Part shown: positions 1 to 4,372 of the stretch, piece after piece
How positions within the stretch are numbered: position 1 is the stretch's first letter
Layout of the letters: the number at the start of each line of letters is the position of its first letter
Assembly: GCA_019694355.1 (NCBI GenBank)
Contig: JAIBCB010000002.1
Span: forward strand, 186,001-250,000
Length of the DNA stretch: 64,000 nt
Source of the DNA: Pyrinomonadaceae bacterium
GTDB lineage: Bacteria; Acidobacteriota; Blastocatellia; Pyrinomonadales; Pyrinomonadaceae
Reading direction: 5' to 3'
Notes under the pieces: model-generated
Databases searched by the model: none
Told to the model about the DNA's origin: nothing
Seen by the model: only the letters and a program-made list of their open reading frames with translations
Position numbers and translations under genes: made by a program

Positions 1-179
1 CACGAACCGGTCGTGCTCGACGCCTTGCTTTTCAAGAATGTGCAAGACTTCAAGGTTTCAGCTCAGAGCGTAAATGGGAAGTAGGTAGCATAAAAGATCG
101 ATTCCGCGCAATTGGGAATGCCGTTCCTCCGCCGCTTTTTGCTGCTGTACTCAAGCCGATCGTGCCAATTTGGACGTAA
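1..179 (+). CDS. C-terminal end of a DNA (cytosine-5) methyltransferase, cut by the window start
   Basis: The window opens inside this gene. The frame that starts at base 3 is open to a TAA at 177-179. The readable 59 residues contain FQECARLQGF followed by FRAIGNAVPPPLF. In C5-cytosine methyltransferases the first block lies just before motif X, and IGNAVPP is motif X itself, which packs against the SAM pocket. The gene ends 13 bases before the ParB-like gene on the same strand, so the two are probably cotranscribed. The DNA is visibly AT-richer than the housekeeping genes further on. The recognition sequence cannot be told from this part. The family call is firm; the role as the modification arm of the adjacent nuclease genes is inferred. 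Confidence 0.85.
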   Translation, partial: RTGRARRLAFQECARLQGFSSERKWEVGSIKDRFRAIGNAVPPPLFAAVLKPIVPIWT

Positions 180-192
180 CTTGTGGAGAAAT

Positions 193-1263
193 ATGGCCCC
201 TCGTAGCCTTGAAGTCGAATTACAGACTCTTCATTTTGACCCGGACAATCCTCGCTTAGTTGGTGAGTTCGACGGAAATGAAAAGAAGATTTTTCGTTAT
301 TTAATAACAGATATTGGAGTGGATGATCTCCTTCAGTCGATGGGGACTATTGGTTTCATCGACGGAGACCCATTCATCGTTCGAGAACGACCGGAGGGCG
401 GCTATTTTGTCGTCGAGGGAAACCGACGCCTTGCTGCATTGAAGCTGCTGACAGGAGAAACGCCCGAGGATGGCGATCAGATTCCATCAGTGCCGGCCAT
501 ATCGACGGAAGCGGCAAATCGATTAAAACTAGTTCGCGTTCAAATTGGATGGTCAGATGATTTGCTGCAAGCTTACCTAGGATACAAACATGTCACTGCG
601 GCGCGGGAATGGCCTCCCGAAGCTAAGGCCAAGTTTGTCTTCAAACATGCGAAAGGAGATTTTTCAAAAGAGAATCTTACTAAATTTGCAAAGGTCCTAG
701 GAACAAAATATGCAAATCTAAAGCGCTGGTTGATTGCGTATCTTGCATTGCTCCAGGCCGAGAAGGAAGGCAAGTTCGATTTTGCGGAGGTGCCTTCCAA
801 ACGCTATTTCGGAACTTTTTATACCTTGCTTGGAGGAGCGAACGCCAAAGAATTTCTGTTGCTTAACGACGATCCAATTTCGATTGCTCCTGTGGCCGAT
901 GAGCGAATCGAACAACTCGGAGAGTTTGTAATATGGACTATTGGCTCGAAAACTAAGCCGTCGGTCGTCAATAGTCGGGATCAGGCCAAATTTGAACAAG
1001 TCCTCGGAAGTCCGAAAGCCCTCGACTATTTCAAGGTAAAGGAGGATTTAGAAGGCGCTCTATTCTATACAGAGTATACGGCGGGTCAAGTGGCAAGAAA
1101 GCTTCGCGAAGCTACATATACGGTGGACGAGTGTATCCCTAGACTGTATAACGTACGCGAAGATCAAACTGTCAGGGAAGCCTTTACGAGTTTTGAACAA
1201 ACATATAAGAAGGCACGGTTAAATATTCGTGGCGACGATCCCATTGCACCTACAGCCGAATGA
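193..1263 (+). CDS. ParB/Srx-fold protein of a restriction-like module
   Basis: I start this 356-residue protein at the ATG at 193. The ATG has GGAGA just upstream and lies after the methyltransferase stop, whereas the longer frame back to 112 would overlap the methyltransferase. The N-terminal 80 residues have the ParB/sulfiredoxin-like layout: a segment fixing a position in D-P-D-N-P-R, then VVEGNRRLAALKLL, the phosphate-binding motif of the fold. A helical region follows (residues about 150-190) that could be a ParB-type DNA-binding domain. Proteins of this fold can hydrolyse CTP or act as nucleases; neither activity is provable here. The gene overlaps the next one by four bases (ATGA), so translation is coupled. 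Low GC and the methyltransferase neighbour suggest a horizontally acquired defence gene. Confidence 0.7.
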   Translation: MAPRSLEVELQTLHFDPDNPRLVGEFDGNEKKIFRYLITDIGVDDLLQSMGTIGFIDGDPFIVRERPEGGYFVVEGNRRLAALKLLTGETPEDGDQIPSVPAISTEAANRLKLVRVQIGWSDDLLQAYLGYKHVTAAREWPPEAKAKFVFKHAKGDFSKENLTKFAKVLGTKYANLKRWLIAYLALLQAEKEGKFDFAEVPSKRYFGTFYTLLGGANAKEFLLLNDDPISIAPVADERIEQLGEFVIWTIGSKTKPSVVNSRDQAKFEQVLGSPKALDYFKVKEDLEGALFYTEYTAGQVARKLREATYTVDECIPRLYNVREDQTVREAFTSFEQTYKKARLNIRGDDPIAPTAE

Positions 1264-2105
1264 GCAGGATAGAATTGATTGCCGATGTCGTTGAATTGAG
1301 GACGTGGGCGAGCAACGAAAATGTTACCCTGAGTTCACTGAAGGAGGAGCTTGAAGCTGTTCTTTCCGAAGAAGAAAGTGAATTCGCGGAGGAACGCGCA
1401 GGCGAGGTTTTCGATGAACTCGAAAGACGAAGCAGATTGCTTGGTGAAGCGTATCCGTTTTCGCTTGTCGACTTTTCTTTTCGGACTAATAAATGTATTG
1501 AAGATTCGTCGTATTTATTCTGTCTTGGACTTGCCTCCTTCAAAGAGATTCCCTCTGACCTAAGAACGATTGAATTTGAATCTATTGTAAAAGGCGCCGC
1601 TGAGTCGTACTTCTGTGGAAAGGGGATCAGAATAGGAGCACCTTGGAAAACACCGGAGGTGACGGAGTACCGGCAATTACTAGAATCAGTGGTAGAACTC
1701 ATTCCAGACATTGGTCCTCCTAGTCGCGATGTGGCACCTGCCGGCGGAGATGGTGGCTGGGATATCGTCGTCGTAAAGAATTTCAGAGACCGAACTTATT
1801 CGAGAGTAATTGCTCTTGGGAATTGCGCTACTGGACGAACCGATTGGAGTAAAAAAGGCCAGGAGAAAGCTCCAAACGCATTTTGGAACTTTTTCAGTAG
1901 AAACCCGACGGATAGAAACGTCTGCCTTACGTTCATTGCCGTACCATTTGCCATGTCGGAAGATGAACGGATAGAGAAAACCTGGGCTAATTCGATTTCC
2001 TTTGATCGTTTTAGAATTTGTGAGCATTTTCCGACCGCTGGAGAAACAGCTATGAAATGGCTAGAAGGTTGCAAAGACGATGCTCTCGATCTTTCCTTGA
2101 TTTAG
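1260..2105 (+). CDS. Candidate Mrr-like PD-(D/E)XK restriction nuclease
   Basis: This 281-residue protein is translationally coupled to the ParB-like gene. There is no close match I can name. The centre carries a helix IEFESIVKGAAESYF (about 104-118), then PAGGDGGWDIVVVK (160-173), then VIALGNCATG (183-192). That order resembles the restriction-endonuclease fold of the Mrr type: helix with glutamate, G-G-D-G-G-x-D, then a strand where E/Q-x-K is expected. Here the last position is Asn-Cys, so either the core is unusual or the active site is built differently. As the last gene of the methyltransferase operon it is the natural candidate for the cleaving partner. Nuclease activity is inferred from motif spacing and context only. 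Confidence 0.5.
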   Translation: MSRIELIADVVELRTWASNENVTLSSLKEELEAVLSEEESEFAEERAGEVFDELERRSRLLGEAYPFSLVDFSFRTNKCIEDSSYLFCLGLASFKEIPSDLRTIEFESIVKGAAESYFCGKGIRIGAPWKTPEVTEYRQLLESVVELIPDIGPPSRDVAPAGGDGGWDIVVVKNFRDRTYSRVIALGNCATGRTDWSKKGQEKAPNAFWNFFSRNPTDRNVCLTFIAVPFAMSEDERIEKTWANSISFDRFRICEHFPTAGETAMKWLEGCKDDALDLSLI

Positions 2106-2865: not shown

Positions 2866-2890
2866 AAGAGTAGCGACGCGGGGCAACGGT

Positions 2891-2960
2891 GAATGGTGAA
2901 TGGTGAATGGTGAATGGTGAATTGTGAATTGTGAATTGTGAATTGTGAATTGTGAATGGT
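2891..2960. repeat. Ten tandem heptamers, left border of the REP/RAYT island
   Basis: Exactly ten head-to-tail 7-base units fill these 70 bases: GAATGGT four times, GAATTGT five times, GAATGGT once. The same words in the same orientation occur again at 4373-4421 on the other side of the REP/transposase island. Confidence 0.9.
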
Positions 2961-2961
2961 C

Positions 2962-3745
2962 GCCGCGTGAGCGGCCGCGTCAATGTAGCCGTGGGTGAAA
3001 CCCACGGTGTGTGCAGCGTAAGGCGTAGCGTCGCGTCAGCGACGGTTCAAACCGACGGGCCGCAGATCATCGCGGCTGTTTATCAATCGTCGCTGACGCG
3101 ACGGGATTCATCGTTGCATATCTTCCGTGGGTTGCACCCACGGCTACATTCAGGCCATCGCTACGCGATGAAGAATGGTAAATGGTGAATGGCGGCGGGC
3201 GTAACAATTGGGCCGCTGCGGTCGATGATCTTGCCGCGTTAGCGGCCGCGTCAATGTAGCCGTGGGTGAAACCCACGGTGTGTGCAGCGTAAGGCATCGC
3301 GTCGCGTCAGCGACGGTTCAAACCGACGGGCCGCAGATCATCGCGGCTGTTTATCAATCGTCGCTGACGCGACGGATTCATCGTTGCATATTTTCCGTGG
3401 GTTGCACCCACGGCTGCATTCAGGTCATCGCTACGCGATGAAGAATGGTAAATGGTGAATGGCGGCGGGGCGTAACAATTGGGCCGCTGCGGTCGATGAT
3501 CTTGCCGCGTAGCGGCCGCGTCAATGTAGCCGTGGGTGAAACCCACGGTGTGTGCAGCGTAAGGCATCGCGTCGCGTCAGCGACGGTTCAAATCGATCGG
3601 CAGATCATCGCGGCTGTTTATCAATCGTCGCTGACGCGACGGGATTCATCGTTGCATATCTTCCGTGGGTTTCACCCGTTTCGTGGGTTTCACCCACGGC
3701 TACATTCAGGCCATCGCTACGCGATGAAGAATTGTCGGCACCCAT
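2962..3745. repeat. Three tandem 271-base REP-type units
   Basis: The sequence starting GCCGCG at 2962 recurs at 3233 and 3504, a period of 271 bases, with few differences; the third copy diverges near its end. Each unit is a string of hairpins: CCGTGGGTgaaACCCACGG, GTCGCGTCAGCGAC, its counterpart CGTCGCTGACGCGACG, CCGTGGGTtgcACCCACGG and ATCGCtacGCGAT. This is the build of a BIME (several REP palindromes per unit). Open frames crossing the block on both strands follow the repeat and are not genes. Fragments of the same unit continue to 3809 and reappear at 4263-4372, so the copies surround the RAYT transposase gene. Confidence 0.9.
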
Positions 3746-3809
3746 TTCGAGGGTTTCACCCACGGAATGTTGCCAACAACAAAACGCGTCGCGTCAGCGA
3801 CGATTGATG

Positions 3810-4262
3810 TCATCCGAGGAGAAATCGTTCATCAAAATCGATCCCGTGGAGTTTGAGCAATGAGGCGTATTCGTCCTCGAAGCTCTGTTTCGCGTGGTGC
3901 GTTCGTTGGTTACGAATATATCGGCCGACGCGGTCGATCTCAGACCTCGAAACAGAGAACACGCCGTAACCGTCCTGCCAGGCAAATTGCGTCATTCCGG
4001 CGAATTCGTTGTGGATCCATTTCGAAGAATCGGCCTTCAAGAATTTCGCGATCTCGCTCGGCGAAAGCGTGGTCGGCGAACTCGTCAGCGCGTGGATGTG
4101 GTCGTCCATTCCACCGACCTGAATTGCGGCGAGGTGATGAGTCTTCGCGATTCCGGCGATGTATGCCCAAACGCGCGTCTCGATCTCGGGTTTGAGCCAC
4201 GGCTCGCGGTTCTTGGTGCTGAAAACGAAATGCAGGTAGACCTGGGAGAATGTGTTCGCCAT
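3810..4262 (-). CDS. REP-associated tyrosine transposase (RAYT, Y1_Tnp)
   Basis: I choose the ATG at 4262 (MANTFSQVYLHFVFSTKNRE), which gives the usual 150 residues; the longer frame runs into repeat sequence. The protein is of the IS200/RAYT type. Residues 10-20 carry the family N-terminal pattern, His55-Ile-His57 in MDDHIHAL is the HUH metal site, and Tyr115 in RYIRNQ is the expected nucleophile. RAYTs cut and move REP palindromes as single strands. Its gene lies between REP-type units on both sides, matching the known pairing of a RAYT with its own REP family. No IS200-style ends of its own were seen. Activity is likely but untested. Confidence 0.9.
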   Translation of the reverse strand: MANTFSQVYLHFVFSTKNREPWLKPEIETRVWAYIAGIAKTHHLAAIQVGGMDDHIHALTSSPTTLSPSEIAKFLKADSSKWIHNEFAGMTQFAWQDGYGVFSVSRSEIDRVGRYIRNQRTHHAKQSFEDEYASLLKLHGIDFDERFLLG

Positions 4263-4372
4263 CGGTTCAATCGTCGCTGACGCGACGGTATCTATTTTAC
4301 ACGTTGTCCGTGGGTTGCACCCGTTCCGTGGGTTGCACCCACGGCTACATTGAGCCATCGCTACGCGATGAA
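4263..4372. repeat. Right-hand REP fragment beside the RAYT gene
   Basis: This stretch repeats pieces of the 271-base unit: CGTCGCTGACGCGACG, a doubled CCGTGGGTTGCACCC hairpin arm, and ATCGCTACGCGATGAAGAATGG. It lies directly upstream of the transposase start, so the transposase promoter must be in or beyond it. Confidence 0.8.

Follow-up and report, generated by a model that had tools for sequence, protein, structure and literature searches.

The described enzymes that come closest to the protein considered here are the restriction nucleases of the Mrr type, in which a winged-helix-like N-terminus precedes a PD-(D/E)XK core (Mrr_cat, PF04471) with Gln on the third element, and those of the MspJI family, including AspBHI, which according to excerpts of PMC3874153 carry an SRA-like reader and cut methylated DNA. 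A catalytic lysine with more than one position is described for the cap-snatching endonucleases of influenza PA and bunyavirus L, where the motifs DxK.....T and ExT.....K are contrasted and the lysine is found on a strand or on a helix (excerpts of PMC2940753). In gene organization, the nearest systems are Type II restriction-modification and PD-Lambda-5, which was chosen from E. coli and has been compared with a compact RM plus Abi system of prophages (Vassallo et al. 2022, PMC9519451, in part).

The locus described here lies at the beginning of a 64,000-nucleotide stretch of DNA from a Pyrinomonadaceae bacterium, referred to below as the window. Its third gene codes for a protein (the effector) that shares with Mrr the predicted core, perhaps the winged-helix-like N-terminus and, in most relatives, the Gln of the third element, but differs by having lysine on the next helix, by matching no Pfam family and by belonging to an operon with a methyltransferase and a ParB-like gene. 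Its best structure matches were to the MspJI family, although no SRA-like reader was seen in the effector. The likeness to cap-snatching endonucleases lies in the reciprocal exchange of lysine between helix and strand; those proteins, however, are viral RNA endonucleases in which the exchange is with Thr, and kinship in sequence is not claimed. Profiles of the PD-Lambda-5 A component matched the ParB-like partner in its N-terminal part, but this match was partial, the effector matched no PADLOC model and the two components of that system were not both found. As in Type II systems, a methyltransferase and a candidate nuclease occur in one operon, whereas here a ParB-like third component is constant and the class of methyltransferase is exchanged. 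The locus points to a restriction-modification (virus-defence) system of an uncatalogued kind. No description of the three-gene system was found in the open-licence PMC literature, and nothing useful on lysine migration was found there. Among the reports considered, TaqII/TaqIII beside parB, in excerpts of PMC5587805, is a plasmid parAB adjoining a single-chain enzyme and not this system, excerpts of PMC13190303 use ParB as a label, and excerpts of PMC2771037 hold no description of the genes of phage WPhi that are considered below.

Organization of the locus

The effector gene is the third of a compact operon (G000:C5) in which it follows genes for a C5 DNA methyltransferase and a ParB-like protein (Table 1). 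The ParB-like gene starts 13 bp past the methyltransferase stop, and its own stop is joined to the effector start by an ATGA overlap. The full-length methyltransferase, read from the adjoining upstream DNA (L002), matched PF00145 with an E value of 1.3e-55. Neither the methyltransferase nor the ParB-like gene figured in the initial annotation of this DNA, which dealt with a putative nuclease core. The peptides that it quoted were present; thus, positions 1740-1835 of the plus strand read AGGDGGWDIVVVKNFRDRTYSRVIALGNCATG free of stops, corresponding to residues 161-192 of the effector. The helix FESIVKGAAESYF also preceded these peptides in the order claimed but was found upstream of the positions 1740-1835 to which it had been assigned.

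Table 1. Genes of the operon and elements of the predicted effector, by position in the window
Feature	Position	Strand	Remarks
C5 cytosine DNA methyltransferase, 3' end	1-179	+	5' part upstream of window (L002:9241-10179); TAA 177-179
ParB-like protein	193-1263	+	N-terminal DxxNPR, VVEGNRR (with P motif GxxR) and W..KA, followed by an HTH-like region
Mrr-like effector, 281 aa	1260-2105	+	ATG 1260, TAG 2103-2105; open reading frame, model, profile and structure comparison, alignment
N-terminal winged-helix-like region, residues 1-79	1260-1496	+	Suggested by structure matches
PD-(D/E)XK-like core, residues 98-267	1551-2060	+	Model secondary structure and VIA-align rows
Helix FESIVKGAAESYF, residues 106-118	1575-1613	+	Residue 107 is E in 21/25
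D164-G-G-W-D168, acidic element before/at strand 2	1749-1763	+	D168 25/25, D164 24/25
N188-C189-A190, site of Mrr Q-x-K, Lys absent	1821-1829	+	Q 22, N 3; K190 2/25; hhalign sets QC against Mrr Q-[AC]
W196-S-K-K199, putative relocated catalytic lysine on helix	1845-1856	+	K 23/25; H/G only in two Q-C-K rows
FDRFRIC, residues 248-254, conserved C-terminal element	2001-2021	+	R250, R252 25/25, D249 24/25; hhalign to Mrr LIDGxxLAxLM

Predicted fold and homology to Mrr

No Pfam, PADLOC or NCBIfam model matched the window effector at E ≤ 1; PF04471 likewise gave no match in 10 effector relatives scanned, and no PADLOC model was matched by the effector in 11 members scanned. Matches were noted to two PHROGs of unknown function, phrog_14650 (E 2.5e-16) and phrog_3984 (E 4.6e-13). 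Sequence searches of the PDB found nothing with the effector profile and weak fatty-acid-synthase matches only with the single protein.

The secondary structure of an AlphaFold2 model built from a 12-sequence alignment (pLDDT 73.2, pTM 0.77) comprised helices at 99-118, 133-147, 196-202 and 234-240 and strands at 121-124, 169-174, 182-189, 220-227 and 245-248, with confidence below 50 in residues 147-165 and 205-217, beside the motifs. This order of elements, alpha-beta-(alpha)-beta-beta-alpha-beta, is that of a PD-(D/E)XK core, as are the first 13 rows obtained with VIA-align over approximately residues 79-267, all of which were restriction-type nucleases or nuclease-fold proteins. Z scores were 8.4 for MspJI (rmsd 4.4, 136 aligned), 8.3 for BspD6I, 8.0 for FokI, 7.9 for AF1548, 7.0 for AspBHI and 6.7 for Cdn1, values near 8 being within the range that the tool flags as a possibly common arrangement and not decisive alone. 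Lower rows on the same region included HamA, Card1, Can2, HindIII and SduA, in a list from which absence does not rule a family out. Over approximately residues 1-79, the matches were to winged-helix chains (E2F-DP, Z 6.5; ScpB, 6.3; UFL1, 6.1; CapW, 5.5), in the common-arrangement range. Foldseek gave no match at E ≤ 0.001, the best being MspJI (E 0.012, probability 0.94).

Homology to Mrr was evident from a profile alignment (hhalign) of the effector core with 29 Mrr_cat domains from relatives, which scored 55.1 (E 5.2e-9) as opposed to at most 20.3 for 200 column shuffles, 9.8 for the reversed profile and 13.9 and 13.1 for two ParB alignments. Paired positions were the effector QC with Q-x of the Mrr Q-x-K, D..G.D with D.GID and FDRxRI with LIDGxxLA of Mrr. 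The FE helix of Mrr was set against residues 134-147 and not against the FE helix at 106-118, and the assignment of E107 is unsure for this reason. The best reading of the model and the profile alignment is that of an Mrr-type PD-(D/E)XK core behind an N-terminus that may be winged-helix-like. The Mrr-like core proposed in the initial annotation was thus borne out by model, structure comparison and profile alignment alike, and no fold other than PD-(D/E)XK, the outcome named there as counting against the proposal, appeared in the predicted structure.

Position of the putative catalytic lysine

Conserved residues were identified in an alignment of 25 effectors, corresponding to 20 non-redundant loci. 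Copies or near-copies (L004, which equals L006, L016-L018, L020, L040, L055-L057, L059, L061 and L064) were left out, as were the partial L021 and L065, the truncated L015, the fragment L043 (which reads QCASGEDWDTK) and the pseudogene L048. As in PD-(D/E)XK sites, an acidic residue at strand 2, D168, was present in all 25 rows; D164 was Asp in 24 and Glu in one, and residue 107 was Glu in 21 and Ala or Gln in four. At strand 3, residue 188 was Gln in 22 rows and Asn in three (window, L032 and L042), followed by Cys at residue 189 in 22. The lysine expected two positions past residue 188 is replaced by A190 in the window, and over all rows residue 190 was Ala in 14, Gly in eight, Thr in one and Lys in two. 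Residue 196 was Trp in 24 rows and residue 199, three past this Trp, was Lys in 23, His in one and Gly in one. The two rows with K190, L022 (QCKTGIHWREH) and L116 (QCKTGTSWTEG), were exactly the two without K199, so that one Lys occurred at exactly one of positions 190 and 199 in 25 of 25 rows; near-identical phage rows inflate these counts, and the tree rows (n = 20) comprised 18 with the helix Lys and two with the strand Lys. K199, which the initial annotation had passed over, lies nine residues beyond the lysine site of Q-x-K, on the next helix, and is the sole alignment column with Lys in at least 60% of rows. In L022 and L116 alike, the effector reading frame is open and adjoins ParB-like and methyltransferase genes. 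On a tree from which motif columns were excluded, they grouped with L009, a helix-Lys row, in a starred clade nested among other helix-Lys rows; judging from these sequences, the strand-Lys state may represent one evolutionary event and not two, because one change suffices on the tree.

These counts bear on the earlier proposal that an invariant-looking LGNCATG, with Asn-Cys in place of E/Q-x-K, forms a new catalytic variant. When N-C-A-T-G was followed through aligned relatives, Asn was a minority state, confined to three of 25 rows, and Gln was the family state for which Asn is a minor substitute; Asn-Cys as a catalytic variant is thereby ruled out. What holds of the proposal is that the third element is altered, Lys being gone from Q-x-K in 23 of 25 rows, but the change is not Asn-Cys and a lysine occurs nine residues later.

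By analogy to the cap-snatching endonucleases, K199 appears to take the role of the catalytic lysine. Sequence and model together point to a variant of the Mrr-type PD-(D/E)XK nuclease within a ParB-coupled restriction-modification-like operon, and we consider it probable that the effector is the active nuclease subunit, with its lysine moved to K199, of a three-gene system of this kind. The metal ligands would be D168 (with D164 or E107) and Q/N188, and the catalytic lysine, usually two past Gln, would act from K199 on the following helix. It is rather unlikely that the effector is instead a dead PD-(D/E)XK fold, serving as DNA-recognition or scaffold subunit while the ParB-like partner or a neighbour cuts, an alternative also raised in the initial annotation as an inactive recognition subunit. 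The absence of the canonical Lys from most rows, the Gln to Asn change in the window and the replacement of E107 in four rows are in its favour, as is the reported nicking of DNA by ParB-superfamily proteins (excerpts of PMC12839542); dead copies, however, would be expected to lose D168, Q/N188 and the single Lys, and the retention of the first two in every row together with the reciprocal exchange of the third argues against an inactive subunit. A nuclease with relocated lysine would be a bacterial example of what looks like movement of the catalytic lysine within the PD-(D/E)XK fold; because both states occur among natural members, the swap is testable by two mutations.

The ParB-like partner

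The GNRR sequence of the ParB-like protein, which contains the P motif GxxR, was present in 20 of 20 homologues. PF02195 matched the window protein weakly and below the cut-off (E 0.0095), and a PDB search with the ParB-like profile yielded one weak ParB-like chain, 6ryk (E 0.054). An HTH-like stretch was noted by eye, which we take to resemble the HTH of ParB. No parA gene neighbours the ParB-like gene at the window locus, where its neighbours are the methyltransferase and effector genes, and the PF02195-positive ParB of the source genome sits elsewhere (C6:136022). PADLOC models PD-Lambda-5_A and PDC-M38A matched the window protein weakly; profiles of the PD-Lambda-5 A component matched the N-terminal part of the protein with E values of 2.8e-12 for the window and 7.5e-23 for E. 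coli, the matches spanning approximately the first 80-170 positions of profiles that are 428-592 long. This likeness is consistent with a role in defence for proteins related to the ParB-like partner. In the ParB-CTPase fold, GxxR serves as the phosphate motif, and orphan proteins with this fold bind CTP, ATP or GTP, with no indication from sequence as to which (excerpts of PMC12704722).

Gene linkage and methyltransferase exchange

The ParB-like gene was directly upstream of the effector gene, on the same strand, in every one of the 20 intact, non-redundant loci (window, L003, L005, L006, L009, L010, L011, L012 twice, L013, L014, L022, L032, L034, L041, L042, L049, L050, L116 and L117). A DNA methyltransferase adjoined the pair in 16 of the 20, and three Pfam classes were represented: PF00145 in the window, L010, L011, L012, L042, L049, L050 and L117 (and, by annotation, L013), PF02086 in L003 (as L045), L005, L006, L041 and L116, and PF01555 in L009, L014, L022 and L032. 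In L012, a Z1-domain gene separates the methyltransferase from the first pair and the second copy is without its own methyltransferase; in L013, the C5 genes are farther upstream, with DUF262, Z1 and PD-(D/E)XK genes in between; and in L034, no methyltransferase was found within 28.8 kb. At least five changes of methyltransferase class were needed on the effector plus ParB tree, several branches of which are weak and in which the row for the window sits on a long branch; the methyltransferase has therefore been exchanged while the ParB-effector pair persists.

Further features were noted at several loci, including some outside this set of 20. The pair lies within larger Mza-like clusters with Z1-domain and C5 methyltransferase genes in L013/L053 (a Neorhizobium plasmid) and L012, the L013 cluster additionally having PD-(D/E)XK MzaD-like genes, and two divergent ParB-effector pairs are arranged tail to tail on the human-gut phage contig of L012 (4992-8585). 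By eye, the pair in L047:2871-6110 (G198) has an additional C5 methyltransferase-like gene beside it, together with a Vsr-like gene. A stop-broken effector gene was found beside a short ParB reading frame and an open methyltransferase gene in L048 (G452), and a small effector fragment in L043 (G597). In these loci the nuclease gene has degenerated, and the methyltransferase gene can outlast it.

In the three-gene system that we favour, the methyltransferase would mark host sites, and the ParB-like protein, as a DNA binder with an NTP-binding fold, would recognise or load on unmarked DNA and then recruit or activate the nuclease, which would cut it. A more specific form, in which a nucleotide-switched ParB-type clamp at unmethylated sites delivers a helix-lysine Mrr-type nuclease, the methyltransferase class being freely exchanged and the pair kept, is put forward tentatively as one possibility; the use of ParB-type DNA clamps in restriction becomes testable in this family. 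We regard it as quite unlikely that the effector is a type IV modification-dependent enzyme that, like Mrr and MspJI, cuts foreign methylated DNA while the methyltransferase does something else. MspJI and Mrr_cat, its closest fold and profile, are modification-dependent, but excerpts of the same source (PMC3874153) indicate, from the example of LlaGI, that methyl dependence does not follow from an Mrr-like nuclease domain, and a nuclease that cut the mark of a methyltransferase so regularly adjoining it would be self-destructive. Given the methyltransferase in the operon, unmodified DNA is at least as likely a target of restriction as methylated DNA.

Distribution of the family

Effector relatives were rare, occurring in 3 of 98 related genomes (own genome included), in 4 of 247, 6 of 396 and 5 of 395 genomes in overlapping draws from the same phylum, in 4 of 148 genomes of one class and 1 of 13 of another, and in 1 of 82 genomes in the phylum of L005. 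Further relatives came from genome contigs, viral contigs, phages and plasmids, while no relatives were found in a genome-contig scan with the single effector protein, in viral-contig scans with A1 and with L012 or in plasmid scans with the window effector and with L022.

All three genes were present in the E. coli phage 12474 types, in WPhi (gp98, gp96 and Mth) and in Pseudomonas phage D14A, and a hypothesis of function is thus provided for phrog_3984, phrog_14650 and unnamed genes of WPhi and E. coli. With at least 80% of the query covered, the WPhi-type locus occurred in 103 and the 12474-type locus in 36 of 5,426 complete E. coli genomes; the two sets are presumably disjoint, because their sum, 139, is the total touched by either query. 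In coliphages or E. coli prophages and in WPhi, the three genes adjoin P2 replication gene A, and in L016 they lie between gene A and a gene that by eye is portal-like. A P2 hotspot near gene A is described in excerpts of PMC9519451, and the coliphage loci occupy that site.

Genes flanking the operon

On the minus strand beyond the effector, the window carries an HTH control-protein-like gene and a gene for a 155-aa NOV_C-like nuclease with an IELK motif (2117-2821). It is highly improbable that this nuclease (2117-2584), with the HTH protein, is the true restriction enzyme and the ParB-effector pair a separate module: the 155-aa gene does end 12 bp from the effector stop, and the HTH protein matches PADLOC Control_protein (E 1.6e-20), but the gene was present in 12 of the 41 genomes of the genus (own included), of which 11 lack the effector, and had unrelated cargo beside it, a distribution that disfavours the HTH and NOV_C-like proteins as restriction partner, and it was seen in the reading-frame lists of none of the other effector loci. 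Flanks of the 155-aa gene in four of five cases held a C5 methyltransferase with Vsr and a restriction endonuclease, a C5 methyltransferase with a restriction endonuclease and Vsr, AbiU/AIPR-like genes or an uncatalogued 408-aa gene, and in the fifth housekeeping-like genes; the site of this gene is a defence-cargo slot of the source genus.

At 2880-3800, several near-identical repeats, each approximately 250 bp long, were noted together with short tandem units of the GTGAATG type, followed on the minus strand by an open reading frame (3810-4358) that presumably resembles a REP-associated transposase. Upstream of the window, at L002:2546-3258, genes for an RHH antitoxin-like protein and a VapC/PIN-like toxin appeared, by eye, to be inserted between the ATP synthase alpha and gamma genes.
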